Source of the DNA: Acorus gramineus
Taxonomy: Eukaryota > Streptophyta > Magnoliopsida > Acorales > Acoraceae
DNA: 64,000 nucleotides
Reading direction: 5' to 3'
Assembly: GCA_030737835.1 (NCBI GenBank)
Contig: CM060853.1
Location: 18,844,895 to 18,908,894 of the forward strand
A program made the position numbers and the translations under genes. Under the pieces are notes generated by a model. It did not search any database and was not told the DNA's origin. It saw nothing but the letters and a program-made list of their open reading frames with translations. Below, one piece after another: positions 3,304 through 64,000 of this stretch. Every line of letters starts with the position of its first letter. Within the stretch, counting starts at the first letter, position 1.

Positions 3304-6300
3304 TTAGATGTAGCTAGATGATCCTAGTAGCAAGTCAAACATGTCATTAGGAGTTAGAAGAGTTGTGCCGCCAAGAATCAACTCCACATCAGGCCTTCCA
3401 CTTTCTGAAATTGCCTCCTGAGCTTCACGGACCTTTAAACCAAGCATCATATTTCCAATAAGAGTAATTTACAGGATAGAATGTGGATATTTAATTAGTT
3501 TTTCAGCTTGTTTTATATGCTCAAAATTTAGAGGTGACAATCAACCGTGACAGATTGAAGTTTAATTGTTTGGGGTTCAAAAAAATTAATCAAGAACAGA
3601 CTCCTGAAAACAGATAAAATGAATTGTTAAGGAAACATTATAAAGCAATGGCTGAGAAACTCACCTCATGTCCACTGATGCCTCCGACAACAAAAACCAG
3701 AATAATGTCTTGATCACCCAGACTTGGTTTTGCCTGAAATTTGTTTTAGCTTTATCATGACAAGTGTATATATTTTTTTGAATCCTGTGATTAGGAGAAT
3801 AGTAGTTACCTGCCCAAGGCCAAATCTACCAAACCCACTTTTGAAGAACCGTCCAACGGCAGAGGAATGGTACTCTAAGCCAGGTATATCAAGCTTACTC
3901 AGAACCATAGTCAGAAGCTTATAAAGCAATCCCTTATGAGCACCAGAATCATTGCTGAACCAACTTTCCAAAGCTAACTTCCCTTCCTTGGAACTTGGAT
4001 TCTTCCTCTTTAAACTGGATAATTTGTAAAAGAACTTGAAGAGATGATCTATCTTGTCTCGCAATTCCAATTTTAGTTGTACCTCCCCATAAGCCTGTTC
4101 ATTATTCTGATCCACGTCATCATCATCCCAATCACCCCAATGATCATCAAAATCTTTGGGTGTGGATGGCTCAGGGACAGCCTCTTTGGCCTTTTCAGCC
4201 TCCACCTTTTTTGAGTTGGCTTCAAGTTCTTCCTCCAAACCATGGAGGAACCTAAACTTCGCAGCCACTGGGTTTTCAAGGATGACATCCATTATGGCTT
4301 CCTTCAAGGAGTGTTCTTCATCCCATGAAAAAGGGCTGCTGGACCCAGACGTCGTGAAATTTTCACCAGCCAAAATGTATCCCACAATAGCAAGAAGGAG
4401 AGCATCCTGAAAAGAAATAAGACTCCTATCTGCTTTTATGTCCTGATTATGTGATCCCACTACAACACTCTTAAGGATGAAATCACATATTTGACTTGAA
4501 AGACTCTGACTGGTATCTCTGGCGCTGATGCTCAGTATCTTTTCAGCATTTGCTAAAGCATCCCAGCGGGAACTGTAAGGATCGCTCAAAGCTATTTCTG
4601 CAGCCGCCGCCAACTGCATGAGCCCTCTGCTCTTGAACAAAGATATCTGGTTTGAAGCCAGCATTTTGGCCATCGAGTTTAGCTCAGAAGCAGTGGTACG
4701 CTGACTAACTTTTGTGTTCAGAGTCATCCTCTCTCGACGTAGAGTTTCCAAAAGCCACTTCTTTATCAAGAGTGCACCGTCTTTTGAATTTCTTTCAAGA
4801 ATTGCTTCTAAGAAATTGGCACCCTGGTAATTATCTGTGGAAACAAAGGATCCACTCAGGTAACTGAGCTCAGACTCCACCAAACTTTTATCGACATGCT
4901 CTGACGGATCTGCACCATTAGATTGAAGAACACCAGAATTCCAACCCGATAAAAAAGCACCCATGCTCTCTGATAAACGCGTGCCACCAACAGAAGATTC
5001 CACCTTGGTTAAAACCCTTTCAAGTGGTATCTGTACATCAAGTGGAGCCCGATGTAGACTAGCATAAGTGCGGGTTGAGCTCTTCACACGTGCAGAGGAT
5101 GCTGTTCTTCCCCTGCGTGGTAAAGAGGACAACATTCGATCAACAAGAGAATCCCCATGGAGGCAGGGAGTAAGTAGATCAAGTGGGCGGTCAATAAGCA
5201 ATAGACAGGCCGATTTTCTATTTCGCCGACCTACATCATAAAGACTGGACATGTCGGTCAATATTTTGCCAATAGTCTTTGACAGATCACCGAGTGAAAA
5301 TATTTCCATCTTCAAATCCATCTACAAAAATTTCAGAATTGAAAAGGGGGTCACAAACAAAATTAAAAACAAGCCCTCAGATGAGCAAAAGAAGAAACTA
5401 GAAAATGCCATCTTAGGCCATGCTGAAACACACTACCTTCGCAACAAGGTGATAAAGAAAATGTGCAGTCAGTGTAGCCCCAGGAGGAGGGTCATCAACA
5501 TCTGACAGCGATCCAGTACATATGGGAGGCAAACCAGGGCTGAGGGACTCTTCTTGTTCATTTGATAGGATTGCTTCAGCAATTGTCCCTTCTGAAGGCA
5601 AAAAAAAGACACGAGGTGAAAGTGGACATAAAATCATGGGGAAGTGATTCACAGCCACAACCAAGTTTGACCAATCATCTCTTAATTCTGTAGAATTTAT
5701 AGATACAGTTTCACCTACATCTCTACCAGTAGCTTCGGTTTTAGATATATCCTCTTTCCTATAAGCTAGATGTGACCAGTTGTCATCTTCAGAAACTGAT
5801 TTTTCCTGATAGTTGCCTTTTACTGGCTTCTTGAGCTCATTGAGTTGATGTGAACTATCTCTCTTCTGGACACAATTTTTGACAAGTTCTTCATAATCTT
5901 GGACAAGCAGAGATTCATATTCATGAAAAGCATCGGGTCCCAAAGGTGAATCAACATGTGCAGAGTGATCGATCTGTTATTAATGCAAGAACAATATCAA
6001 AATATTAGCATGACAATAAAATAAAAATTTGAGTGAGGATATATATCATAATATTATAATTTATAAAATTCAATTTCTTAATTATTTTTTTTTAATATAT
6101 AGGGCCCTTTAAGAGGATAGAGAGAACATTGGAGTCAATGGAAAGAGTTGTCCAACAGGTTTTTTAATGCAAAGATCTAGTGCTATGTTTGGGTTGAAAG
6201 GCAAAACGAGCATGCAATGCATCTTTGTGTGTGTGTGTTGGATATGAAAACATGCATATTTAGTTACTTGTATAACTATATCTCGCAAATCCATTCACAA

Positions 6301-20962: not shown

Positions 20963-23900
20963 TTAATGATCCCACTCTGTAAGACCCATCATCACAACAT
21001 GATTTTTATAGGTCTTTGGCGCCAATCCTTTAGTTAAGGGATCTGCTATCATATTCCTTGTACTAATATGTTCAATGGACACTAGATGATCCCGTATCTT
21101 CTCTCTTACAACAAGATATTTAATGTCTATGTGTTTAGACGCACTTGAGCTCTTGTTGTTTTTGGAGAAGAAAACAGCAGCGGAATTATCACAGTAAATT
21201 TTCAATGGCTTAGCAATTGTATCCATCACTTGAAGCCCTGAAATGAAATTCTTCAACCATAATGCATGTGAAGTAGCTTCATAGCAACTAATAAACTCAG
21301 CCTCCATGGTGGATGAAGCAACAATTGTTTGTTTAACGCTTTTCCATGATATAGCTCCACCAGCCAGTAGAAAAACAAAACCAGATGTTGATTTTCTACT
21401 ATCGACACAACCGGCAAAATCCGAATCTGAGTAACCAATTACCTCTAGATTATCAACCCTTTTATATGTAAGCATATAGTCTTTTGTCCCCTGAAGGTAG
21501 CGCATAACCTTCTTTGCAGCTTTCCAGTGCTCCAATCCAGGATCACTTTGATATCTCCCAAGCATTCCAACAGCAAAACTTATATCAGGACGAGTACATG
21601 TCTGGGCATACATTAAACTTCCTACAGCAGAGGCATAAGGAATTTCTTTCATTTGTTTCCGCTCAACCTCATTTCGTGGACATTGAGATTGGCTAAATTT
21701 ATCACCCTTCACAATGGGTGCATCACCTGATGAGCAATTTTCCATTTTAAACCTTTCAAGAACTCTTTTAATGTAAGTCTTTTGTGATAAGCCAAGTAAA
21801 TGACGAGATCTATCTCGATGAATCTCAATGCCTAACACAAAAGAAGCTTGACCTAAATCTTTCATGTCAAAGTTCTGTGATAGAAATTCTTTGGTCTCAT
21901 ATAAAAGACCCAAATCACTACTAGCAAGCAATATATCATCCACATACAAGACTAAGAAAATAAACTTGCTCCCACTGACCTTCAGATATATACATTGGTC
22001 AATAGTGTTTTCCTCAAATCCGAAGGATGTAATGATGTCATTAAACTTAAAATACCATTGACGGGAAGCTTGTTTTAGTCCGTATATGGATTTCCTTAAT
22101 TTGCATACTAGTTGCTCCTTTCCCTTTTCTTCAAAACCCTCGGGCTGTCTCATGTAGATTTCCTCATCTAGATTTCCATTCAAGAACGCAGTTTTCACAT
22201 CCATTTGATGTAACTCTAAATCATAATGAGCTACTAATGCCATGATAATTCTAAATGAATCCTTCTTCGAGACAGGTGAGAAGGTTTCACTATAATCGAT
22301 TCCCTCCCGTTGAGTGAATCCTTTAGCAACAAGTCTGGCCTTATACCGTTCAACATTGCCCTTGGAATCTCGTTTAGTCTTAAATACCCATTTACAACCA
22401 ATAGGTCTAAACTCCTTAGGCAGTTCAACAAGTTCCCAAACTTGATTTTTGCTCATGGATGTCAGTTCATCCTTCATGGCATCCAACCATTTTTTAGAAT
22501 TATCACCCTTCATGGCTTGTGAAAACAAAATTGGATCTTCTTTAATTCCAATATCAAAATCTGACTCCTGAAGGTACACAATGTAGTCATTTGGTATAGC
22601 AGATCTTTTCACCCTTTCTGATCTGCGTAGAGTACCATGTGTGGCTACATTATCATTATTTTGTACACTTTCTAAAATAGGTTCATTATTTTCAATTATT
22701 TCATTCGATGGTGTACTCCTTTCAGGTTGATCTTCCAAAATGTTATGCTCAAGAGCATTACTCATGTCATCAACCTTTGATGTTTCAGTAGGAAAAGAAA
22801 CTGAATTTCTTATTTCTTGAAATACCACGTTTCGCGGTTCACTCCCACTGATACAACCATCTTCAATGAACCTAGCAGTGATAGTTTCAGATATTCTATT
22901 TGTATGGTTAGGACAGTAAAACCGATAACCCTTTGACCTTTCTGGATACCCAATGAAAAAACAGCTAACTGTTCTTGGGTCTAATTTTCTTTCATGTGGG
23001 TTGTAAAACCTAGCCTCAGCCGGACATCCCCAAACATGTAAATGTCCTAAACTCGGTTTCCTACCTGTCCATAACTCGAATGGAGTTTTAGGAACAGCTT
23101 TACTAGGAACTCGGTTTAGGATATACATTGCAGTCCTTAAGGCTTCACCCCACAAAAATTCAGGCAATGTGGAATTACTGACCATACTCCTAACCATTTC
23201 TATAAGGGTGCGGTTACGCCTTTCAGCCACACCATTTTGTTGAGGTGTCCCTGGCATCGTATACTGTGCAATGATGCCATTTTCTTGTAGGAATCTAGCA
23301 AAATGACCTAAATGATGGTTTGTTCCATCGTATCTACCATAATACTCACCACCCCTATCAGACCTCACAACCTTAATTTTTCTGTTTAATTGATTTTCAA
23401 CTTCAACCTTGTAAATCTTAAAGGCATCCAAAGCTTCAGATTTTTCTTTTAACAGAAAAATATATCCATAACGTGAGTAGTCATCAATGAAAGTGATAAA
23501 ATATTTTTGACCACCAAAACAGGGTGAAAAAGGACCACAAATGTCAGTATGAATCACTTCAAGAAGCCCAGAACTCCTTGTGGCACTCTTTTTAGAGGTT
23601 TTAGATTGTTTTCCTTTAATACAATCTATGCAGACACCATAATCAGTAAAGTCAAGAGTTTTTAAAACTTCATCTTTCACTAATCTCTTAATTCTCTCTT
23701 TAGAGATGTGTCCAAGTCTATTATGCCACAACATAGAAGAGTTTTCATTAACAATGCCACGTTTATTACCAACACTCACATGCAAGGATAAAAGGGATTG
23801 AGAAAATGAGGAATCCAAAGACAGTTTATATAATCCATCACACAATAAACCAGTACCAATCAAAAGAGAGTTTTGAAACAAGTTGACCTTACAATTTTCA

Positions 23901-25042
23901 AAATTGAAGGTATAACCTTCGAGGTCAAGTTTAGGTAAGGAAATAAGATTTCTAGAAAATGAAGGGACATAAAAAACATTATTCAATAGAAGGTGGAATC
24001 CGGTATTTAAAATAAGCTTGTAGGTCCCTATTGCTTTGACTTTAGATTTCAACCGGTTCCCCATGAAAATAAATTGCTCTCTTTCATTTGGCTTCTGGGT
24101 TGAAAGGAATCCCTGCATGGAGTTTGAAACATGAATTGTGGCACCAGAATCAATCCACCAAGTATTAGAAGGAACATCAATAAAATTGGTTTCAAAACAT
24201 ACAAGTGACAAAGTATCACCTTTCTTTGCAAACCAATCTTTGCGTTTCTGACAGTCCTTCTTGAGATGTCCCTTCTTCTTACAGAAGAAACACCTCAAAT
24301 TGTCACTCTTCTTTCCACTTTGATGGCCAACTTCATTTGACCTCTTGCCTTTCTTTGGTGGACCTTTTCTTCCCTTAAATGGCTTCTTGTTGTTGGGTTG
24401 ATTCTCCTGAGATACTAGATGGACAATATGCAATCCCTCCTGTTTCAGTCTTTCCTCCTCTTGCACACACATAGCAATCATTTCATTCATGGTCCATTTA
24501 TCTTTATGTGTGTTGTAAGTAATTTTGAATGGACCAAACTGAGGAGGAAGACTATTGAGTGCAAATTGCACAAGGAAAGGTTCAGAAATTGTCATTTCCA
24601 TGCCTTTAAGCTGCCCAGCCAAATCTCCCATTTTCATTATGTGCTCTCGCACTCCACTTATTCCATCATATCTCATAGTGGTCAATTTTGCCATTAATGT
24701 ACCCGCCAAAGCCTTATCAGATCCTTGGAACTGTTGTTCCACAGCTTGGAGGTACTCTTTTGCCTTAGAACTAGTAGGGATGGATCCCCTAATAGTCTTA
24801 GCAATTGTACTCTTAATGACCATGAGACTAAGTCTGTTAGAGCGTTCCCACTTCTCATATAGAGCTTTCTGTTCAGTGGTACTTGCCTCAGTAGTTTTAG
24901 GAGGTTCATCAATGCGCAAACAATAGTCAAGATCAGAACATCCTAATGCAATGCGTAATTGCTCATTCCAATCAGAAAAATTTGATCCATTAAGTGTTGG
25001 AACATTAGATACATGCCCAGACAATGGAGTAGGGGTCATCAC
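20963..25042 (-). CDS. copia gag-pol polyprotein
   Basis: Single 1359-aa frame without stops. A UBN2-type gag region lies at about residues 50-200. The zinc knuckle CFFCKKKGHLKKDC is at 251-264 and the aspartic protease motif DSGA at 298-301. The integrase zinc finger is H440/H445/C471/C474. The integrase catalytic triad is probably D500 (HTDICGP), D562 (RSDRGGEY) and E607 (NGVAERRN). Reverse transcriptase has YVDD at 1033-1036, and RNase H has YSDSDFAG near 1213. All key catalytic residues I can check are present, so the protein could be active. The many smaller frames on the opposite strand are shadows. Confidence 0.96.
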   Translation of the reverse strand: MMTPTPLSGHVSNVPTLNGSNFSDWNEQLRIALGCSDLDYCLRIDEPPKTTEASTTEQKALYEKWERSNRLSLMVIKSTIAKTIRGSIPTSSKAKEYLQAVEQQFQGSDKALAGTLMAKLTTMRYDGISGVREHIMKMGDLAGQLKGMEMTISEPFLVQFALNSLPPQFGPFKITYNTHKDKWTMNEMIAMCVQEEERLKQEGLHIVHLVSQENQPNNKKPFKGRKGPPKKGKRSNEVGHQSGKKSDNLRCFFCKKKGHLKKDCQKRKDWFAKKGDTLSLVCFETNFIDVPSNTWWIDSGATIHVSNSMQGFLSTQKPNEREQFIFMGNRLKSKVKAIGTYKLILNTGFHLLLNNVFYVPSFSRNLISLPKLDLEGYTFNFENCKVNLFQNSLLIGTGLLCDGLYKLSLDSSFSQSLLSLHVSVGNKRGIVNENSSMLWHNRLGHISKERIKRLVKDEVLKTLDFTDYGVCIDCIKGKQSKTSKKSATRSSGLLEVIHTDICGPFSPCFGGQKYFITFIDDYSRYGYIFLLKEKSEALDAFKIYKVEVENQLNRKIKVVRSDRGGEYYGRYDGTNHHLGHFARFLQENGIIAQYTMPGTPQQNGVAERRNRTLIEMVRSMVSNSTLPEFLWGEALRTAMYILNRVPSKAVPKTPFELWTGRKPSLGHLHVWGCPAEARFYNPHERKLDPRTVSCFFIGYPERSKGYRFYCPNHTNRISETITARFIEDGCISGSEPRNVVFQEIRNSVSFPTETSKVDDMSNALEHNILEDQPERSTPSNEIIENNEPILESVQNNDNVATHGTLRRSERVKRSAIPNDYIVYLQESDFDIGIKEDPILFSQAMKGDNSKKWLDAMKDELTSMSKNQVWELVELPKEFRPIGCKWVFKTKRDSKGNVERYKARLVAKGFTQREGIDYSETFSPVSKKDSFRIIMALVAHYDLELHQMDVKTAFLNGNLDEEIYMRQPEGFEEKGKEQLVCKLRKSIYGLKQASRQWYFKFNDIITSFGFEENTIDQCIYLKVSGSKFIFLVLYVDDILLASSDLGLLYETKEFLSQNFDMKDLGQASFVLGIEIHRDRSRHLLGLSQKTYIKRVLERFKMENCSSGDAPIVKGDKFSQSQCPRNEVERKQMKEIPYASAVGSLMYAQTCTRPDISFAVGMLGRYQSDPGLEHWKAAKKVMRYLQGTKDYMLTYKRVDNLEVIGYSDSDFAGCVDSRKSTSGFVFLLAGGAISWKSVKQTIVASSTMEAEFISCYEATSHALWLKNFISGLQVMDTIAKPLKIYCDNSAAVFFSKNNKSSSASKHIDIKYLVVREKIRDHLVSIEHISTRNMIADPLTKGLAPKTYKNHVVMMGLTEWDH

Positions 25043-26017
25043 TGAAATAAAGACAATATTTTTACATTAACATCATGTTTTAAATCATATACAATTAAAT
25101 CACATGCAATTACTATTATTAAAATTAATTCGTATACATTCATGAATTAATTTTAAAGTGAATCATGCATCATCATCATCCCTCCTTTGGGTCGAGAATA
25201 CGACATGCAATTGATCACAACAATTCGAATACAATAATGAATTGATCCTTAAAATTACATCATCACAATCCCTCCTTTGAGTCGAAATTGTGATATGTAA
25301 TTAAATCACAATTATACAGTTTAAATCTCCAAAGCCATGAAGATGTTTTTTTTTTTTTTTTTTTTTAACCATAATTAATTCAAGTTTCTCATGATTTGGT
25401 CACTTTGGTGACTACAAAATCACTCGATTAATGAATAACTATGACATCAAATTTCATGGAGATTAATTAAACTAATAATTTCCTTTAATAATGATTTTAA
25501 TCATAAAAATCAAAAGTAATCTTTTATGTTGCTTTTGTTATTACTTAATCCATATCATTTATTCAGTAAATAGCCTCCTTTGGGTCGACTATTTATGAAT
25601 AAATTAAATGGTAAACTTTTATGCAACTTTCTAACATGTATTCTCAATATCTTATTGACTGTGATCCCTTTGGGGAACAATATCAATTTATTTGAAAAAA
25701 CATTTAAAGGATGTAATTAATCTTACTAACATGAAAACTCAAATCCAATGTACAGCCATGCAAGATACGAGATCCATTCTATTATACATATATATGTAAG
25801 AATCACTAGAACATCCTTTCTTTAAAGGTTTATTACAAATCATATATATATCATTATGTATATTATTGCATGTAAACATCCCACGTATGCATATATCATG
25901 TATATCAATGCTTTTAAATATCCTACGCATGCATATATGTTAATGAATTCTATTACATAAAATATTATTTCATATTCATTCGACTTTCATGACTTATGAA
26001 TTACAGAGTCACAACCT

Positions 26018-47965: not shown

Positions 47966-48864
47966 TAGCCCTGTTTAGATACAGAAAAAACCCAGGTTAA
48001 AATAGGAATAAATCTTTGGATAATCTGATATTGATTGAAATAGAGATTTTAACATGTTTGTTTGTCTGGTATATCTCAGAATATCTTATGTAGAATAAAC
48101 TTGTACAGTGTGATATATGAATTCCAACCAACCCATGAAAAGGTTATTCTAGGTTATTCCACCCAAATAATATGTGGGCTCACTGTCAAATCAACCATTA
48201 TCACTTCTTATAAAGCACATGTCAAATCAACTATTATTATTTTTTCACCTTTTATAAATCCCTATCTATACTTTATTCACATTTTACCTTAACAACAAAA
48301 CATTTATTTTTACATTTACCAAAGAGAATAATTCAAAACACAACAAAACACAAAATCACTTTATCCTTATTTATCCTCACTTATGTCGGAATAAATGTAT
48401 ACCCAATAATAAATCATATTCATGTTCCAAATGGGGGCTAAGACTTATTCTTGGGTATACAGTTCTTCTAGCGAAAGTGAGTATAAATAAGGATAAAATG
48501 ATTTTGTGTTATGTTGTATTTTGAATTATTCTTGTTAGGAAACGTAATAATAAAAATTTTGTTGTTTGGATAAAATATGAAAAAAGTGTGAATAAGGATT
48601 TATAAAAAGTAAAAAAAATAATGATAGTTAATTTGACATGTGATTTATAAGAGGTGATGACAGTTGATTTGATAGTGGGCCAACATATTCTTTGGGTGGA
48701 ATAACCAGGAATAACTTTAATTCTACGGTTGGTTAGAATTCATGTACCACTTTATACCAGTTTATTATGACATAATTTATCTCTGGGTATTCCCTACATT
48801 CAAACAACAAAAAAATACATATTCTGCTTTATTCTCACATTCTTCCCTATCCAAACAGGGGTTT
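47966..48864. mobile_element. inverted pair of MITEs (head-to-head)
   Basis: Copy 1 runs about 47966-48442, from TTAGCCCTGTTTAGATAC to GTTCCAAATGGGGGCTAA. Copy 2 runs about 48443-48864 in reverse and ends CTATCCAAACAGGGGTTTAG. The two are reverse complements over nearly their whole length; for example GTGGGCTCACTGTCAAATCA pairs with TGATTTGATAGTGGGCC. Together they form a foldback of about 900 bp. No coding potential. Confidence 0.8.
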
Positions 48865-52544: not shown

Positions 52545-54508
52545 TCAGTTTTACATGGCTCTGGATGCTTAACACGTACATATTGACGACAAAGGCATCA
52601 GTGTTAGTTAACAGACATCCATGTGGCTTCTTCCATATTCACAAAGGACTTCACCAAGGTGATCTGTTATCCCCACTTCTATTTGTCATCGTTGCTAATG
52701 CTTTTAGTAGGATGATGAAGATGGCCTTTGAGAGAGAGATATGGGTGAAGGGACTATAGTGCAAAACAGGAGGTGCCACCATTTCCCACGTGCAGTATGC
52801 GGACAATACGATCGTTCTAAGCATGGCAAAGGACACGGTGAGGGGAGAAGTTTGTTTATACTTTGAGTTGGTGTTGGGACTTCAAATAAATTTTACGAAC
52901 GAGTGCTAACTTGGGGATCAACGTGGAGAGGCCTACCTTATCCAGGCTTGCGAGAGTCCTTTTTTGCGAAGTCCAGTCTTTTACGTTTAGACATGCGGAG
53001 CTACCTCTCCACTTGCGGAGCCTTCAGAAGTCGGATTGGGAACCGCTTGTGGAAAGTTTTGAACGTCGATTGGACGGGTGGAAGAGAAGATTCCTGAGCA
53101 TGGGTGGTTGGCTGACTTTACTTCAAGCTGTCCTTTTCAATCTCCCAATTTTTTTTATGATTTTATCACTGTTCAGAATTCCGAAAGGAGTGTTGAGGAG
53201 GTTGGAGGGGATTAGGAGGCGTTTATTCTAGTGCGGTGCAAAGGAGGATCGGCATAAGGTCCACATAATGAGGTGGGGCATCGTTTGCTCGAGCAAGAAG
53301 AAGGGGGGGTGCGGGGGTTGATTTGGTGGATATGAATAGCGCATTGCTATATAAATGGTTATGGAGGTGGCTGAGGCTTCCACAGTTGCTGTGGTGTGGG
53401 GAGACGGGAATGCTATGGCGCTTTGGCGGACCGGTTCCCATGGTGCAATTGCATATCATTGAGGATGTGGCGATATACCCTACAGGGGCAGGAGGAAATC
53501 TCAGAGGCAATAGGTTGGGAAATTGGCTCAAGTTTGTCGATGAGGTTTTGGGAGGATGTGTGTGGACCCCACTGAGGCAAAGATTCCCACGCACTTTTCA
53601 GATCTCCACCGAGGCCAGTGGCATGGTGTGTCAATTCTAGAGGAGCAGGGGAGATGGGGGATATTGGGAGGTATAGGTGCAAAGGAACCTTAACGATTCT
53701 AAGTGGACAGCCATCTTTCACTCCTTGAGATACTTCAATATGTGGAGGTGAGTCCGGGTCGTGGGCACACTCCGGTGTGGATTCCGGGGAGATTGGTGGG
53801 TTTCATACTCAAGAGTTGCTATGAGTGGATGAGAAGGGAAAGGCCGGTGGTCCAAGTAATTGCGTCCAAGTACAAGGAAATCTGGGGATGCAAGGTCCCT
53901 CTGAAGGTCAGAGCATTTATGTGGATGGTTTACTTACTCAAAGTTCTCACCAGATCTAGTATTGCACGCTAGTCTCCAGCGGTGGACACGACGTGTGCGT
54001 TGTGTTGATGGGAGGAAGAGATGGTGGATCACCTCTTTTTTAAGTGCCCCATGGTTCGGCAGATGTGGGGCTGGTTGCAGGTGGCTACGGGTTTGGAAGA
54101 GAGATTCCATGATGTGGAGGGGATGGGGGAGGCGGGCAGGAGTTTGCGGATAGCGGGGGATCGATCTTTGAGAGCCAAGATTTCACGATCGTATGATGGT
54201 GGTCAATTTTATTCAGGAGTGGGGAAGATTTTGTGGGCGTGGGGGTGGTGAGGGTGTTGGTGGGAGGTGTGATAATCTCTTGATTGGCCTCTCTTTTGGG
54301 AGAATGGGGAGGACATTTGGTGCAAACCATGAGTAGACGTCTCTTCTACTATTGGGGAGTAGTTCTCTGTTTTTCTCCATTCCATAGGCCTTCATTTTCT
54401 GTCTTGTTTTCTCTAAATTATCTTTTTTTTTTTGTAATTTTCCTTTGGATTTTGGCCTTTTATTAATACAAAGGTGATCCGCCTACCGTTTCCCTAAAGA
54501 AAAAAAAC
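52545..54508 (+). pseudogene. LINE (non-LTR retrotransposon) remnant, RT to 3' end
   Basis: Broken frames in order give GLHQGDLLSPLLFVIVANAF (RT fingers/palm motif), then QYADNTIVLSMAKDT, where the usual YADD active site reads YADN. Next come RRLDGWKRRFLSMGGWLTLL (thumb region), SKYKEIWGCKVPLKVRAFMW (start of the zinc-binding RVT domain) and EMVDHLFFKCPMVRQMWGW. It ends GCCTACCGTTTCCCTAAAG plus an A-run (to 54508). Several frameshifts and the lost catalytic Asp make it inactive. The endonuclease and 5' part are absent. Confidence 0.88.
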
Positions 54509-54509
54509 T

Positions 54510-56560
54510 ACCACCTAATAAGGAAGGGCACATAATTAAAAAGACGAATGATCAAAATCATAAGCAACCATTTATTGGTATAAAACAACCCATTCAAATA
54601 TACAAATTTTTTAAACGAATTCATGTCTTATATAATCCTATTTTTTAGACACTCCCATAGATTTTTTTTTCCCCTCTTTGGTTGATATTTCAACATAGGC
54701 CAATAAATAAATGAGAAAAATTCTCAACACAAAAGTGTAAACATGTCAGCACTTAGAAGGAGATGTTAACCTGAATCATTGTCCATTGCAGCAATCACAA
54801 GCATCATTGTAACTTGAGAAAACCAATAAGGATTTTTTAGTTGATAGCAGATGGACAATGCATAAAAAAAAAAAAAAACCTTAACTATACTGTTGAGGAG
54901 CTTGTCATGTATCATATATATTTTAAAAAAACAAAGGCTTGGTATAATCTGACTATATTAAGAATTTAACAATATTATATGTTTATCCACTAATGCCTAA
55001 CTAAAAGAAATATAAGCAGACGGTCCAAGATTCAAATTTAAGGTGATCATGGTATATATCTTACTTTTAGACATCATGCTAGAAACAAGATCAGCACATG
55101 TTCCAATTATTCTTTTCACATAAGAATGAAAACAAACCTGAAGTTAATGAAATCCATTGCAACAGATTACTTGTCAAATGGCTTCCCAAACATATAACAT
55201 TGCACAAATATTTATATGGAATCAAATGATTATGCTGAGATTATAATTTCATCAACAACGTGATTTTTTTTTTTGTTGGGGGGGGGGGGGGGGGGGGGGG
55301 GGGGTGTAATTTAAGCCTACACGCTGGACTTATAACCAAAATTGTTTTTCATTACAAATGTAGTTGGATAATGTGCAGCACCTGAGATCTAGATGCAGTT
55401 TGGAGCAATAATATGAGTAGACATATACTTATCTTGCTTCGATTAAAAAATAAATAATTAAATAAAGGACTCATAAAGTAATCAAGGAATGCTGAAATGA
55501 AATATGCAAATGTTACCAGAGGCTGCAGATGGAAGAGAATCAAATAAAGAATTCAAACCCCAACCACTCAAGTAATTATTAGAAACCTCAAAAAAAAAAA
55601 CTCGGAATATCTTAGGGAAAATCACCTTCAAACGTCCCAATTTCTCAGTCAATGTCCAAATCCCCTGCTACAGATGATGGAGATGAGGATGGCATTAACA
55701 AATATAAATTTTTCCCTTGGTTGTAAATGAGAAAATCAATGAGTTTTATTCCTTTTTGGGTGTCACAAAAAACAATTTCTTTTTAGATTGATTAACCTAT
55801 TGACCTAAGAACAACTTCACTGACTTGAATGGTTGTTCTTCAACTTACTGTCCCAGCAATTTTTCCCAAAAAACATGTGATAAAAGTGAAGCTTTAGCAA
55901 GAAGAAACAAAGAGATACATAGGGAAGGGAAGTATATTGGGTTACCAGAGGGGTCGAGGTCACCAAGGAGGCAGATGAACGATCCCACAAGAGAAAAAAT
56001 ATACTCCGTTAGATTTCGTCTTCATCCCTCTTTCACCACTACAACAATCTCATTCAAAGCTTCAAGTAGATCTCAGAAAGAAAGAAAGGAAAAAAAAGAG
56101 CTAAGAAAATAATGCACACATGGCAATGGAAACCCAACTAGGAGACACGAAGAGAGGGGAAAGTGAAATATCACCTCATCAAAAGACACATTGACAGAGA
56201 ACTTCAGTCCAGTCGACTGGGAATTACAAGGATATACCCTCCATTTGGAATAACCATCAGATTGTCCGGTTAGAAAAATTGTCGTTATCATGCCTCATTA
56301 TAGGATATTGTTTTAAATTTCCCAAAAGTTTTTCTAATTTAAGTTGTCACATTTGCGATTCAAGCCACATACCTTGTTTTAAAAACAAAGGCTATGTAAA
56401 TAAGAAATGAAGGAGAGAATGATACATTTTAAAAATCAAATGTCATGAGTTGCAAAAAATAAAGTATTAATTCACTTGGAATGTAGCAATTAGAAATCAA
56501 TGCTATTTAAAAAGCAAGGAAAAAACAAGACTACACAAAAATCAAAGGATGCGAGCGACA
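54510..56560. other. no gene recognised
   Basis: AT-rich sequence between the LINE and the satellite. It has a 27-G run at 55278-55304 and short A-runs. The frames at 55825-56112 (+) and 56073-56291 (-) show no motif I can name. Confidence 0.5.
55278..55304. repeat. poly-G tract (27 G)
   Basis: Uninterrupted run of 27 guanines, preceded by a T-run. It could form a quadruplex, but such runs are also prone to length errors. Confidence 0.9.
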
Positions 56561-59423
56561 AAAAATAAAATCTTAATGCAATTGAAATGTGACAGACAAA
56601 TACGATCCATGTCCGTCATCCTCAACGGTGCACCCATCCTCAAAGGGATGGTCATACAATGGTTTCCACCAAGTTTTCTTCCCTAACCCACCACATTTGG
56701 GATTCAAGCCATAGACCAATAAGTTGCCTTAAAAACAAATGCTATGCAAAATGAGAAGTGAAGGAGAAAGTGATGCTCGTTAGAAATCAAATGTGATGTG
56801 CTGCGAAAAATAAAGTATTAAATCACTTGAGTTGTAGCGATTAAAATCAATGTTATTTAGAATGCAAAGCGAAGGAGTGATGTTATTTAAAAAATAAAGG
56901 TGATGAGCAACGAAAAATAAAATCTTAAATCACTTGAATAATGGTAGACAAATGTAATCCATGGCCGTCATCCTCAGCGGCGCACCCGTGCACTTAAGGA
57001 GAAAAGTTGATGGCTTTAGCATGGTTTCCACAAAGTTTTCTTCCTTAAGCCACCACATTCGGGATTCAAGCCATAGACCTATAAATTGTCTTAAAAACCA
57101 ATGCTATGCAGAACGACAAATGAAAGAAAAAGCGATGCTCTTTAGAAATCAAATGTGATGGGTTGTGAAAAATAAAGTTTTAAATCACTTGAATTGTAGC
57201 GAGTAAAATCAATAATGTTATTTAGAATTAAAGGAAATTGTAGCTATTAAAATCAATGTTATTTAGAAAGAGAAGTAGAAACGATGTTATTTAAAACATA
57301 AAGGTTATGAGATGAAAAATAAAATCTTAAATCACTTGAAATGTGGCAGACAAATATGATCCATGGCCGTCATCCTCAGCGGCGCACCCGTGCACTTAAG
57401 GAGAAAAGTTGACGGTCATGGTCTGGTTTCCACCAAATTTTCTTCCCTAAGCCACCACATTCGAGATTCAAGCCATAGACCTTTAAATTGCCTTAAAAAC
57501 CAATGCAAAGTAGAATGAGAAATGAATGTGTAAGCGATGCTCTTTAGAAATCAAATGTAATGTGCTGTAAAAAATAAAGTTTTGTAAGGAATAAAATCAT
57601 TGTTATTTAGAATGAGAAGCGAAGGCGAAACGATGTTATTAATTAAAAAAGAGTGATGAGCGACAGAAAAATAAAATCTTAAATCATTTGAAATGTGGCA
57701 AACAAATACAATCCATGGCCGTCATCCTGAGTGGCGCACCCGTGCACTTAAAGAGAGAAGTCGATGGCCATAGTCTAGTTTCCACCAAGTTTTCTACCCT
57801 AAGCCTCCACATTCAGGATTCAAGCCACAAACCTATAAGTTGCCTTAAAAAGCAATACAATGCAGAAAGAGAAAATGAAAGAAAAAGCGATGTTCTTTAG
57901 AAATCAAATGTGATGTGCTGTGAAAAATATAACTTTTAAATCACTTGAATTGCGGCGATTAAAATCACTATTATTTAGAATGAGAAGGAAAAACAACGTT
58001 ATTTAAAAAATAAAGGTGATGAGCAACGAAAAATAAAATTTTAAATCGCTTGAAATGTGTGGCAAACAAATACAATTCATGGCCATCTCCTTTAGTGGCT
58101 TACCTGTGCACTTAAAGAGAAAAGTTGATGGCATAGTCTGGTTTCCACCAAGTTTTATTCCTTAAGCCACCACATTCGGGATTCAAGCCACAGACCTATA
58201 AGTTGCTTTAAAAACCAATGCAATGTAGAATGAGAAATGAATCAGAAAGCGATGCTCTTTAGAAATCAAATGTAATGTGCTGCAAAAAATAAAGTTTTAA
58301 ATTACTTGAATTGTAAGGATTAAAATCAATGTTATTTAGAATGAGAAGTGAAGGAGAAACGATGTTATTTATAAAACAAAGGTGATGAGCGACAAAAAAA
58401 TAAAATCTTAAATAACTAGAAATGTGGCAGACAAATACGATCTGTGGTCGTCATCCTGAGTGGCGCACCCGCGCACTTAAGGAGAAAAGTTGATGGCCAT
58501 AATCTGGTTTGCACCAAGTTTTCTTCCCTAAGCCACCACATTCAGGATTCAAGCCACAGGCCTATAAATTGCCTTAAAAACCAATGCAATACAAAATGAG
58601 AAAATGAAAGAGAAAGCGATGTTCTTTAGAAATCAAATGTGATGTGCTGTGAAAAAAATAAGTTTTAAATCACTTGAATTGTATTGATTAAAATCAATGT
58701 TATTTAGAATGAGAAGTGAAGACAAAACAACGTTATTTAAAAATAAAGGTGATGAGCGACGAAAAATAAAATTTTAAATCACTTGAAATGTGGCAAACAA
58801 ATACGATCCATGGCCGTCATCTTCAGTGGCGCACCCGTGCACTTAAGGAGAAAAGTTGATGGCATAGTCTGGTTTCCACCAAATTTTATTCCTTAAGCCA
58901 CCACATTCGAGATTCAAGCCACAGACCTATAAGTTGCTTTAAAAACCAATGCAATGTAGAATGAGAAATGAATGAGAAAGCGATGCTCTTTAGAAATCAA
59001 ATGTAATGTGCTGCAAAAAATAAAGTTTTAAATTACTTGAATTGTAAGGATTAAAATCAATGTTATTTAGAATGAGAAGTGAAGGAGAAACGATGTTATT
59101 TATAAAACAAAGGTGATGAGCGACAAAAAAATAAAATCTTAAATCACTTGAAATGTGGCAGACAAATACGATCTGTGGTCGTCATCCTGAGTGGCGCACC
59201 CGCGCACTTAAGGAGAAAAGTTGATGGCCATAATCTGGTTTGCACCAAGTTTTCTTCCCTAAGCCACCACATTCAGGATTCAAGCCACAGACCTATAAGT
59301 TGCCTTAAAAATCAATGCAATGCAGAATGAGAAAATGAAAGAGAAAGTTATGTTCTTTAAAAATAAAATCTGATGTGCTGCGAAAAAAAAAGTTCAAAAG
59401 CACTTGAATCGTGGCGATTAAAA

Positions 59424-59705
59424 TCAATGTTGTTTTCTTCCCTAAGCCACCACATTTAGGATTCAAGCCACAGACCTACAAGTTGTCTTAAAAATCAATG
59501 CAATGTGCAGAATGAGAAAATGAAAGAGAAAGTGATGTTCTTTAGAAATCAAATGTGATGTGCTGCAAAAAAAAAAAGTTTAAAATCACTTGAATTGTAG
59601 CGATTAAAATCAATGTTGTTTAGAATGAGAAGTAAAGGAGAAACAACGTTATTTTAAAAAAAAAGGTGATGAGCAACGAAAAATAAAATCTTAAATCAGT
59701 TGAAA
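59424..59705. repeat. truncated satellite unit at an illegitimate junction
   Basis: The unit that begins near 59161 jumps at about 59430 from AAAATCAATGTTGT straight to TTCTTCCCTAAGCCACC. A partial unit lacking the header follows before the next full one. This looks like an unequal-exchange or deletion junction. Confidence 0.75.
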
Positions 59706-61148
59706 TGTGGAAAACAATACGATCCATGGCCGTCGTCTTCAGTGGTGCACCCGTGCACTTAAGGAAAAAAGTTGATGACCATAGTCTGGTTTCCACAAAG
59801 TTTTCTTCCTTAAGCCACCACATTCAGGATTCAAGCCACAGACCTATAAGTTGCCTTAAAAACCAATGCAATGCAGAATGAGAAAATGAAAGAGAAAGCG
59901 ATGTTCTTTAGAAATCAAATGTGATGTGCTGCGAAAAATATAAGTTTTAAAACACTTGAATTGTATTGATTAAAATCAATGTTATTTAGAATGAGAAGTG
60001 AAGACAAAACAACGTTATTTAAAAATAAAGGTGATGAGCGACGAAAAATAAAATTATAAATCGCATGAAATGTGTGGCAAACAAATACAATCCATGGCCA
60101 TCGCCTTCAGTGGCGTACCCGTGCACTAAAGGAGAAAAGTTAATGGCCATAGTCTGGTTTCCACCAAGTTTTCTTCCTTAAGCCACCACATTCGGGATTC
60201 AAGCCACAGACCTATAAGTTGCCTAAAAAACCAATGCAATGTAGAATGAGAAATGAATGTGAAAGCGATGCTCTTTAGAAATCAAATGTAATGTGCTGTA
60301 AAAAATAAAGTTTTAAATTACTTGAATTGAAAGGATTAAAATCAATGTCATTTAGAATGAGAAGTGAAGGAGAAACGATGTTATTTATAAAACAAAGGTG
60401 ATGAGCGACAAAAAAATAAAATCTTAAATCACTTGAAATGTGGCAGACAAATACGATCTGTGGTCGTCATCCTGAGTGGCGCACCCGCGCACTTAAGGAG
60501 AAAAGTTGATGGCCATAATCTGATTTCCACCAAGTTTTCTTCCCTAAGCCACCACATTCAGGATTCAAGCCACAGGCCTATAAATTGCCTTAAAAACCAA
60601 TGCAATACAAAATGAGAAAATGAAAGAGAAAGCGATGTTCTTTAGAAATCAAATGTGATGTGCTGTGAAAAAAATAAGTTTTAAATCACTTGAATTGTAT
60701 TGATTAAAATCAATGTTATTTAGAATGAGAAGTGAAGACAAAACAACGTTATTTAAAAATAAAGGTGATGAGCGACGAAAAATAAAATTTTAAATCACTT
60801 GAAATGTGGCAAACAAATACGATCCATGGCCGTCATCTTCAGTGGCGCACCCGTGCACTTAAGGAGAAAAGTTGATGGCATAGTCTGGTTTCCACCAAAT
60901 TTTATTCCTTAAGCCACCACATTCGGGATTCAAGCCACAGACCTATAAGTTGCTTTAAAAACCAATGCAATGTAGAATGAGAAATGAATGAGAAAGCGAT
61001 GCTCTTTAGAAATCAAATGTAATGTGCTGCAAAAAATAAAGTTTTAAATCACTTGAATTGTAAGGATTAAAATCAATGTTATTTAGAATGAGAAGTAAAG
61101 GAGAAACGATGTTAGTTATAAAACAAAGGTGATGAGCGACAAAAAAAA

Positions 61149-61618
61149 CATCGAAGCGATAGCGGATATAAGAGCGGAAATAAGTGTGGTGCGGAGCATA
61201 AAAGCGACGAAGGAGCGTAAGAAGCGACAGCTATGGAGCGGAAAAAGGAGCTTGCTTAATTAGAAAGTGAGGTGAGTTCACTTCCCAAAGCGGATGATTG
61301 GAGCGATATAAAATACCGATAATCCTTAATATAGAGTTTCTCTCGAATCCTTTATTAAGAAAGCGAACCTCTAATCCTTAATATAGAGCTTGACTCAAAT
61401 CAAGTATTAAGAAAGCGAACTCAAAAGACCTTTAAAACGGGCCACTTTTGAAACTCAAGTCTGATCTCTTAGTTCATTCTGTTTTATGACTTTGTGGCCT
61501 ATATGAAATGCAACTTGTTCATATGCTCTGTAATAAGAATCATAATGAATGGCTAGTACAAAGTCTATCATAGTAAGGTGATCCTTGTGTTGCAGTCGTT
61601 CTCTCCCAAGGTAAATAT
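61149..61618. other. 470-bp non-satellite island inside the array
   Basis: Satellite sequence stops after GATGAGCGACAAAAAAA and resumes at AATCACTTGAAATGTGGCAG; about 10 bases of the unit (TAAAATCTTA) are replaced. The insert begins purine-rich (CATCGAAGCGATAGCGGATA) with many AGCG words. It then has two copies of AATCCTTAATATAGAG (near 61320 and 61375), each followed by ATTAAGAAAGCGAAC. No target duplication, inverted termini, poly(A) tail or coding frame is visible. Origin unknown. Confidence 0.75.
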
Positions 61619-64000
61619 AAATCACTTGAAATGTGGCAGATAAATACGATCTGTGGTCGTCATCCTGAGTGGCGCACCCGCGCACTTAAGGAGAAAAGTT
61701 GATGGCCATAATCTGGTTTGCACCAAGTTTTCTTCCCTAAGCCACCACATTCAAGATTCAAGCCACAGACCTATAAGTTATCTTAAAAACCAATGCAATA
61801 CAGAATGAGAAAATGAAAGAGAAAGCGATGTTCTTTAGAAATCAAATGTGATGTGCTGTGAAAAAAATAAGTTTTAAATCACTTGAATTGTAGCGATTAA
61901 AATCAATGTTATTTAGAATGAGAAGTGAAGGAGAAACGACGTTATTTAAAAAATAAGGTGATGAGCGACAAAAAATAAAATCTTAAATCACTTGAAATGT
62001 GGTAGACAAATACGATCCATGGACGTCATCCTGGGTGGCGCACCCGTGCACTTAAGGAGAAAAGTTGATGGCCGTAATATGGTTTCCACCAAGTTTTCTT
62101 CCCTAAGCCACCACATTCAGGATTCAAGCCACAGACCTATAAGTTGCCTTAAAAACCAATGCAATGCAGAATGAGAAAATGAAAGAGAAAGCGATGTTCT
62201 TTAGAAATCAAATGTGATGTGCTGCGAAAAATATAAGTTTTAAATCACTTGAAATGTAGCGATTGAAATCAATGTTATTTAGAATGAAAAGTGAAGGAAA
62301 AACAATGTTATTTAAAAATAAAGGTGATGAGCAACGAAAAATAAAATTTTAAATCACTTGAAATGTGGCAAACAAATACGATCCATGGCCGTCGTCTTCA
62401 GTGGTGCACCCGTGCACTTAAGGAAAAAAGTTGATGACCATAGTCTGATTTCCACCAAGTTTTCTTCCTTAATCCACCACATTCGGGATTCAAGCCACAG
62501 ACCTATAAGTTGCCTTAAAAACCAATGCAATGCAGAATGAGAAATGAATGAGAAAGCGATGCTCTTTAGAAATCAAATGTAATGTGCTGTAAAAAATAAA
62601 GTTTTAAATCACTTGAATTGTAAGGATTAAAATCACTGTTATTTAGAATGAGAAGTGAAGGAGAAACGATGTTATTTATAAAACAAAGGTGATGAGCGAC
62701 AAAAAATAAAATCTTAAATCACTTAAAATGTGGAAGACAAATACGATCTATGGTCATCATCCTGGGTGGCGCACCCGTGCACTTAAGGAGAAAAGTTGAT
62801 GGCCATAGTGTGGTTTCCACCAAGTTTTCTTCCCTAAGCCACCACATTCAGGATTCAAGCCACAGACCTATAAGTTGCCTTAAAAACCAATGCAATGCAG
62901 AATGAGAAAATGAAAGAGAAAGCGATGTTCTTTAGAAATGAAATGTGATGTGCTGCGAAAAATGAAATTTTAAATCACTTGAATTGTTAAAATCAATGTT
63001 ATTTAGAATGAAAAGTGAAGGAGAAAAGACATTATTTAAAAAATAAAGGTGATGAGCTACGAAAAATAAAATTTTAAATCACTTGAAATGTGGCAAACAA
63101 ATACGATGCATGGCCGTCGTCTTCAGTGGCGCACCCGTGCACTTAAGGAGAAAAGTTAATGGCCATAGTCTGGTTTCCACCAAGTTTTATTCCTTAATCC
63201 ACCACATTCGGGATTCAAGCTACAGACCTATAAATTGCCTTAAAAACCAATGCAATGTAGAATGAGAAATGAATGAGAAACCGGTGCTCTTTAGAAATCA
63301 AATGTAATATATTGTCAAAAATAAAGTTTTAAATCACTTGAATTGTAAGGATTAAAATCACTGTTATTTAGAATGAGAAGTGAAGGAGAAACGATGTTAT
63401 TTATAAAACAAAGGTGATGAGCGACAAAAAAATAAAATCTTAAATCACTTGAAATGTGGCAGACAAATACGATCTGTGGTCGTCATCCTGAGTGGCGCAC
63501 CCGCGCACTTAAGGAGAAAAGTTGATGGCCATAGTATGGTTTCCACCAAGTTTTCTTCCCTAAGCCACCATATTCAGGATTCAAGCCACAGACCAATAAG
63601 TTGCCTTAAAAACTAATGCTATCCAGAATGAGAAAATGAAAGAGAAAGCGATGTTCTATAGAAATGAGATGTGATGTGCAGTGAAAAATAAAGTTTTAAA
63701 TCACTTGAATTGTAGCGATTAAAATCAATGTTATTTAGAATGAGAAGGAAAAACAACGTTATTTAAAAATAAAGGTGATGAGCGACGAAAAATAAAATTT
63801 TAAATCACTTGAAATGTGGCAAACAAATACGATCCATGGCCGTCATCTTCAGTGGTGCACCCGTGCACTTAAGGAGAAAAGTTGATGGCATAGTCTGGTT
63901 TCCACCAAATTTTATTCCTTAAGCCACCACATTCGGGATTCAAGCCACAGACCTATAAGTTGCTTTAAAAACCAATGCAATGTAGAATGAGAAATGAATG

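Follow-up and report, generated by a model that had tools for sequence, protein, structure and literature searches.

Human alpha-satellite arrays have an array-specific higher order, are homogenised locally, and carry more generic units at their edges. Higher-order structure is common outside that system: the survey of Melters et al. (2013, PMC4053949) finds it clear in 76 of the 171 species that had Sanger data, giving an AB dimer of Sorghum as example, and a report on oyster describes satellite-like repeats carried by Helentrons (PMC7492417). We have analysed a window of 64,000 nucleotides of Acorus gramineus (C7:18,844,895-18,908,894), together with the 398.6-Mb assembly of 137 contigs to which it belongs, and which was the genome searched. 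The right-hand end of the window holds an array in which two diverged unit types alternate. AB-dimer repeats are widely known, and this array is of an ordinary kind, well described by known processes.

Alignment, TRF and self-match all delimited a tandem array of ~366-bp units, arranged head-to-tail on the plus strand, from about position 56,310 to the window edge (Table 1). An earlier note on this DNA had placed the array start at 56560; the measured left edge lies near 56,310-56,360, with self-match beginning at 56,318. The right end was found at C7:18,909,185 (L009:1186), only 291 bp past the window, so that the array is complete, at ~7.9 kb. Twenty-one unit starts, anchored on a conserved word, fall inside the window (M01 to M21). 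Sixteen of the 20 steps between them measure 352-368 bp, and the remaining four 344, 402, 183 and 828 bp, the last because a 465-bp non-satellite insert interrupts unit M14. Word lags and self-match gave ~366 bp for the unit and ~731 bp for the dimer; the dimeric tandem order described before was thus retained, and its periods, ~365 and ~726 bp, were corrected. The strongest exact-word lag is 2016 bp rather than 731 bp, which counts against a clean dimer, and is due largely to a single 398-bp exact copy (58,512 and 60,528). The earlier description had not covered the insert, the duplication inside every unit, or the generic units found at either array end.

Table 1. Coordinates of the array features in the window (positions of the window) and of the arrays of the same repeat in the assembly.
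Feature	Position	Strand	Basis
Tandem array, ~366-bp units	56310..64000, +291 bp beyond window	+	unit starts, alignment, self-match
M01-M03, generic left-edge units	56357..57464	+	alignment, clustering
M04-M08 = B,A,B,A,B	57465..59276	+	clustering
M09 (183 bp), M10, M11 = A,A,A, alternation break	59277..60195	+	unit starts, alignment, clustering
398-bp block, copy 1	58512..58909	+	self-match, identical to copy 2
398-bp block, copy 2	60528..60925	+	self-match
Internal duplication, its place in M12	60227..60441	+	two 104-bp modules; TRF period 111 at 60227-60437
465-bp non-satellite insert in M14	61148..61612	.	self-match, genome search
M15, A/B hybrid unit	61755..62120	+	diagnostic columns
M16-M21 = A,B,A,B,A,B	62121..64000	+	clustering; M21 cut by window edge
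Arrays on C7	18.90 (window), 20.93, 22.19 Mb		
Arrays on C10	10.42, 10.46, 10.473-10.483, 12.67 Mb		
Arrays on C4	29.88, 30.30 Mb		
Array on C9	7.24 Mb		
Array on C1	0.16 Mb		
Array on C8	4.62 Mb		
Arrays on small unplaced contigs	C29, C51		

From the fourth unit on, both alignment and clustering resolved two types, A and B, which largely alternate; between the runs listed in Table 1, M12-M14 read B,A,B. M21 has a B head, and is completed beyond the window (L009) by a generic-type tail. Units M01 to M03 are neither A nor B, M01 being the most diverged (74-79% identity to the 19 units compared). When M02 and M03 were included in the clustering, both split off first, and A and B separated at the four-cluster level; without them, the two clusters obtained were A and B (silhouette 0.41), M15 joining B. 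Monomer clustering, proposed in the earlier note as a check, returned two types and not one homogeneous family. The types differ at 22 diagnostic alignment columns, picked with the A and B groups already in hand. A few units are impure at these columns (M04, 6 A and 15 B; M10, 17 and 4; M17, 4 and 18), and M15 is mixed (11 and 9). The CGCGCAC mark, previously opposed to CGTGCAC as diagnostic, was present in 5 of 7 B units, M04 and M17 lacking it.

Alternation was tested on 16 units, M04 to M20 without the 183-bp M09, leaving out M01-M03 and the cut M21. The type changed at 13 of the 15 neighbour steps (p = 0.009, 100,000 order shuffles), or at 13 of 16 when M09 was counted. Identity at unit offsets 1, 2, 3 and 4 was 89.0, 92.3, 89.6 and 90.6% for M04-M20 (n = 16 at offset 1, n = 15 at offset 2), and 88.7, 91.4, 89.2 and 90.2% when M02 and M03 were included. 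The excess at offset 2 is modest, 3.3 points, and the even/odd difference becomes smaller and less regular beyond offset 3. Mean identity was 93.3% within types and 88.7% between them. A maximum-likelihood tree of 56 units grouped the eight A units in a clade with bootstrap support 93 and six B units in another with support 96. Units are head-to-tail, more alike when two apart, and split into separate A and B clades, as in an AB dimeric higher-order repeat. The alternation of two diverged monomer types claimed at the outset is upheld, and the dimeric order is confirmed as real, despite resting on 16-17 units with alternation broken at two places.

Both breaks had been described as two A-type tails in a row. 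The first, at 59.3-60.2 kb, proved to be three A units in a row, one of them cut to 183 bp, and its junction in M09 shows, by eye, GTTT(T) microhomology. The second had been placed near 61.6-62.3 kb; a disruption is indeed found there, at 61.75 kb, and consists of the A/B hybrid M15 followed by an A unit, not of two A units. The states of M15 along the diagnostic columns, AAAAAABBA?ABBBAA?BBABB, give an A head and a mostly B tail. Besides these breaks, the 398-bp block of Table 1 recurs without a difference at a shift of 2016 bp, and the two identical copies are evidently the product of a recent copying event within the array. The AAA run, the 183-bp unit, the hybrid and the exact copy together bear out the suggestion that the array has been reshuffled, and from their pattern we infer copying within the array.

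The unit itself is built from a duplication. In the B majority sequence, positions 32-135 and 143-246 form two 104-bp modules that are 79% identical, with a similarity score of 51, the highest among 300 shuffles being 16. The remaining ~145 bp resembles neither module (scores of 8 and 10, within the range of the shuffles). At 79% identity between modules, the internal duplication is older than the dimer. A search for inverted repeats in one dimer returned short or imperfect ones only, and the 10-bp periodicity of AA/TT/TA gave a ratio of 1.30, compared to 1.13 +/- 0.12 in mononucleotide shuffles. As for the 465-bp insert, it is single copy in the genome searched, its three other matches being just 40-44 bp long. 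It carries its own 52-bp tandem duplication, and by eye stands in place of ~9 bp of the unit, with no obvious target duplication.

The repeat belongs to a small family, with at least 14 small arrays in the assembly (Table 1) and a remnant at C7:22.14. A 32-base unit core, searched with at most 3 mismatches, gave 160 matches in 398.6 Mb and none in a reversed control; this is the genome-wide count that had been proposed in the earlier note, and 130 of these matches lie within the stretches examined in detail. The core count is too low, since a profile search gave 187 full and partial units in 12 arrays alone. Moreover, the C29 and C10:10.473-10.483 arrays, recovered by flank search and core search respectively, were missing among the similarity matches listed, so that counts from those searches are lower bounds. 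All copy numbers refer to assembled sequence only; C29 was read in part and left out of the trees, and C10:10.473-10.483 is known from its core matches rather than read by unit. The longest array seen is ~9 kb. Contig C51 (25,000 bp) has its left-hand matches at C10:12.67 and its right-hand ones at C1:0.15 Mb, and may, from these matches, be an allele, a true mosaic or an assembly chimera.

The monomer may be an undescribed one. Three 15-17-base words of it and their reverse complements had no match in open-access full texts, in which sequences are seldom printed, and no plant paper with ′366-bp′ appeared among the literature matches listed. An exact 28-base unit pattern had no occurrence in viral and prokaryote collections. 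A Crepis satellite family was considered and set aside on unit length: as far as the excerpted description goes, 366 is the upper end of the 156-366 bp length range of another family.

Comparison of units across 12 arrays made use of 187 unit hits, of which 119 full-length ones were aligned, 55 partial ones (at least 100 bp) were added later, and 13 shorter ones were dropped. For 84 of the 119 units the nearest relative was in the same array. The other 35 had it in another array, including 17 among the near-identical C1, C10:12.67 and C51 arrays and 5 between C10:10.42 and 10.46; in the window array this was the case for 3 units out of 18. Unit orders also differed between places. The C9 array has a period of 1837 bp, its copies being 99.4% alike, the C1, C10:12.67 and C29 arrays have one of ~1251-1254 bp, and the C10:10.42 array has no clear higher order. 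Units of C9 and C7:22.19 are not near-clades in the tree, hence the separation between arrays is incomplete. Judged from these unit relationships, local homogenisation is not uniform across arrays.

We also looked for A and B outside the window array. With the majority state of the other arrays taken as reference at 20 A/B sites, A carries 9 changes and B carries 9, and 2 are unclear. None of the 101 full units of the 11 other arrays reached 16 or more of the 20 A or B states. In the whole assembly, the A-head pattern, with at most 2 mismatches, was found at 10 places, 8 of them in the window array and the others at C7:20.93 Mb and C10:10.43 Mb, the latter keeping one B state. The B-head pattern was found at 13 places, 7 in the window array and 6 lacking two B states. 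At C7:20.93 the unit has the A state at all 19 sites scored, and the edge unit that comes after it groups with the edge unit of the window array (support 100). Pure A and B units are found in the window array, plus one A unit at C7:20.93, 2 Mb away on the same contig, so that the dimer is not strictly private to the window array. Identity between C7:18.91 and C7:20.93 is 94.1% in the array, 95.9% in the near flank and 87.8% in the far flank. The presence of an A unit at C7:20.93 implies that the A/B split is older than the right-edge duplication between these two loci.

The right flank of the window array is common to C7:20.93, C7:22.14, C9 and C4:30.30 (85% over 1.8 kb by BLAST with C7:20.93), and at C7:18.91, 20.93 and 22.14 Mb the array gives way to it at one and the same junction. 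A second right (3′) flank is common to C1, C10:12.67, C51, C29, C4:29.88 and C8, and the left flank of C10:10.42 and 10.46 is partly common with those of C1, C10:12.67 and C51. As several arrays have common flanks, the segments copied during dispersal were, at least in part, longer than the array itself. For the 1.5 kb to the left of the window array, no match was found in the left flanks of the other arrays with which it was compared.

Such flanks, shared on several contigs and ending abruptly, would also be left by a non-autonomous mobile element, for instance a Helitron-like one, carrying the arrays as cargo and spreading them with their flanks by transposition. Helitron ends are a 5′ TC and a 3′ hairpin followed by CTRR. 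In the C8, C10:12.67 and C1 copies, homology does stop at a common point, give or take a base or two; this shared 3′ end reads, by eye, ...AATAA and not CTRR, and no 5′ end was found. A CTAG following the AATAA end in the C10 copy was read as the end of a neighbour: at L018:40-73, a Helitron-like 3′ end (a hairpin, then CTAG-T, by eye), which we take to resemble the Helitron signature, abuts the shared flank of the C10:12.67 copy. The reported Helentrons of oyster, with their short satellite-like arrays, speak for transposition (PMC7492417), but several observations speak against it. When the left flank was compared with the right one in 9 arrays, over 1.1 to 16 kb per side, no match exceeded 116 bp, the matches being four of 28-60 bp at the window array and one of 116 bp on C1. 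Few flank copies were found: one flank gave 7 loci, on scoring 40 of the 3496 first-look candidates, and the other gave 6, leaving aside a 588-bp piece. An RNase H-like domain alone was found in the few flank frames scanned. We therefore regard transposition as cargo as unlikely. In its fuller form, the repeat would be the internal array of a so far undescribed non-autonomous mobile segment that has repeatedly placed array and flanks at new sites in gene-bearing DNA, a doubtful proposal on the same evidence; if true, each deposited array would evolve its own higher-order pattern, and short dimeric arrays would be a by-product of transposition rather than of centromere biology.

Other elements were seen in these flanks. 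The 588-bp segment (L020:2009-2596), which adjoins the second flank group, is itself a dispersed repeat with more than 10 copies or part-copies, ~69-74% identical and in many cases sharing their ends; it may be a transposable element or a long terminal repeat. A GC-rich fragment resembling the 5′ end of a gene occurs in the shared 3′ flank (L009:1640-1940; L028:2956-3237 and 3947-4226), and as an inverted pair at C10:10.466 Mb; no Pfam family was matched in the frames tried. On the left of the C10:12.67 array, ~755-bp direct repeats, 95.5% alike, lie ~2.8 kb apart (C10:12674179-12674932 and 12677751-12678511, L018/L026). By its sequence the pair looks like an LTR element; being outside the array and missing from the C10:10.42 copy, it is a later insertion in the left flank.

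The arrays might instead be outlying pieces of a centromeric or subtelomeric satellite; the earlier note had remarked that dimeric satellites are often pericentromeric or subtelomeric, yet that this one abuts a gene-bearing region. The unit equals 2 x 183 bp, and 183 bp is near the nucleosome repeat length. Some arrays do lie near contig ends: that of C1 is 0.16 Mb from the start, and a TTTAGGG tract is found 0.7 and 1.1 Mb away from the two on C4. Two more are on small unplaced contigs. However, the high copy number and long arrays of a centromeric satellite are not seen in the assembly, with its 160 core matches, nor do the arrays adjoin telomere repeats on several chromosomes. Nine of the 12 arrays on long contigs are more than 2 Mb from either end, the window array having 18.9 Mb of C7 before it and 5.83 Mb after it. 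CENP-B boxes are not in excess in the window (61 matches for 69.4 expected, two inside the array). Low copy and the distance of most placed arrays from contig ends leave the pericentromeric or subtelomeric status unsupported, and make this origin very improbable. Also very improbable is the expansion of a tandem repeat internal to an LTR retrotransposon, by which 9 of 11 major Lathyrus sativus satellites are reported to have arisen (PMC7004042), as the LTR-like pair upstream of the C10:12.67 array does not enclose it and is missing from the C10:10.42 copy, and no LTR-sized repeats bracket the 9 arrays (longest match 116 bp, some flanks being as short as 1.1 kb).

We consider it probable that the repeat is a low-copy, noncoding, interstitial plant tandem repeat, spread within larger segments and then reordered locally. 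An ancestral unit of ~366 bp, made of two modules of ~105-111 bp and ~145 bp of other DNA, would have come to occupy at least 14 places, carried at least partly within larger duplicated segments together with its flanks, as seen for several of them. Unequal exchange, conversion or slippage would then have copied the array interiors locally, and the unit orders peculiar to several places would be the outcome. In the window array, two neighbours would have diverged at ~20 sites before the pair became the copied unit, giving rise to the A-B alternation. Out-of-register copying may have produced the AAA run, the 183-bp unit and the hybrid, and edge units, having escaped copying, would have retained the generic type. 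The array is presumably maintained passively, no host function being indicated: all stop-to-stop frames in it are shorter than 120 aa, and the window gave no Rfam match at gathering cut-offs.

The rest of the window contains several other features. On the minus strand, 20963-25066 is occupied by a Copia-type retrotransposon polyprotein frame, open over 1367 aa, in which Pfam detected gag, integrase and reverse transcriptase domains. Pfam also detected a transferase-family domain of the BAHD kind. An inverted repeat at 48240-48617, with 179-nt arms 82% complementary and 20 nt apart, is MITE-like. To the left of the array, remnants at 52600-54400 resemble, by eye, a LINE reverse transcriptase, and a run of 27 G at 55278-55304 is a likely sequencing trouble spot.

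With its shared flanks and differing higher-order patterns, this small assembled family makes the start of a higher-order repeat traceable: its birth, when two neighbours diverge and the pair becomes the copied unit, can be viewed without the assembly problems of centromere scale. Compared to human alpha-satellite, the window array is alike in its array-specific order, local homogenisation and generic edge units, and differs in its 366-bp unit, its size in kilobases instead of megabases, and the lack of CENP-B-box excess. Reports on the oyster Helentron repeats (PMC7492417) and on mollusc satellite junctions (PMC5139131) likewise describe short arrays that are dispersed, share flanks and have abrupt junctions; ours differ in the few copies found and in element ends that are at best putative. 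Finally, the AB-dimer repeats surveyed by Melters et al. (PMC4053949) are candidate centromere repeats in large arrays, whereas the window array is low copy and ~7.9 kb long; in both, as far as that survey describes them, diverged monomers alternate, form separate clusters in trees, and the dimer is better conserved.
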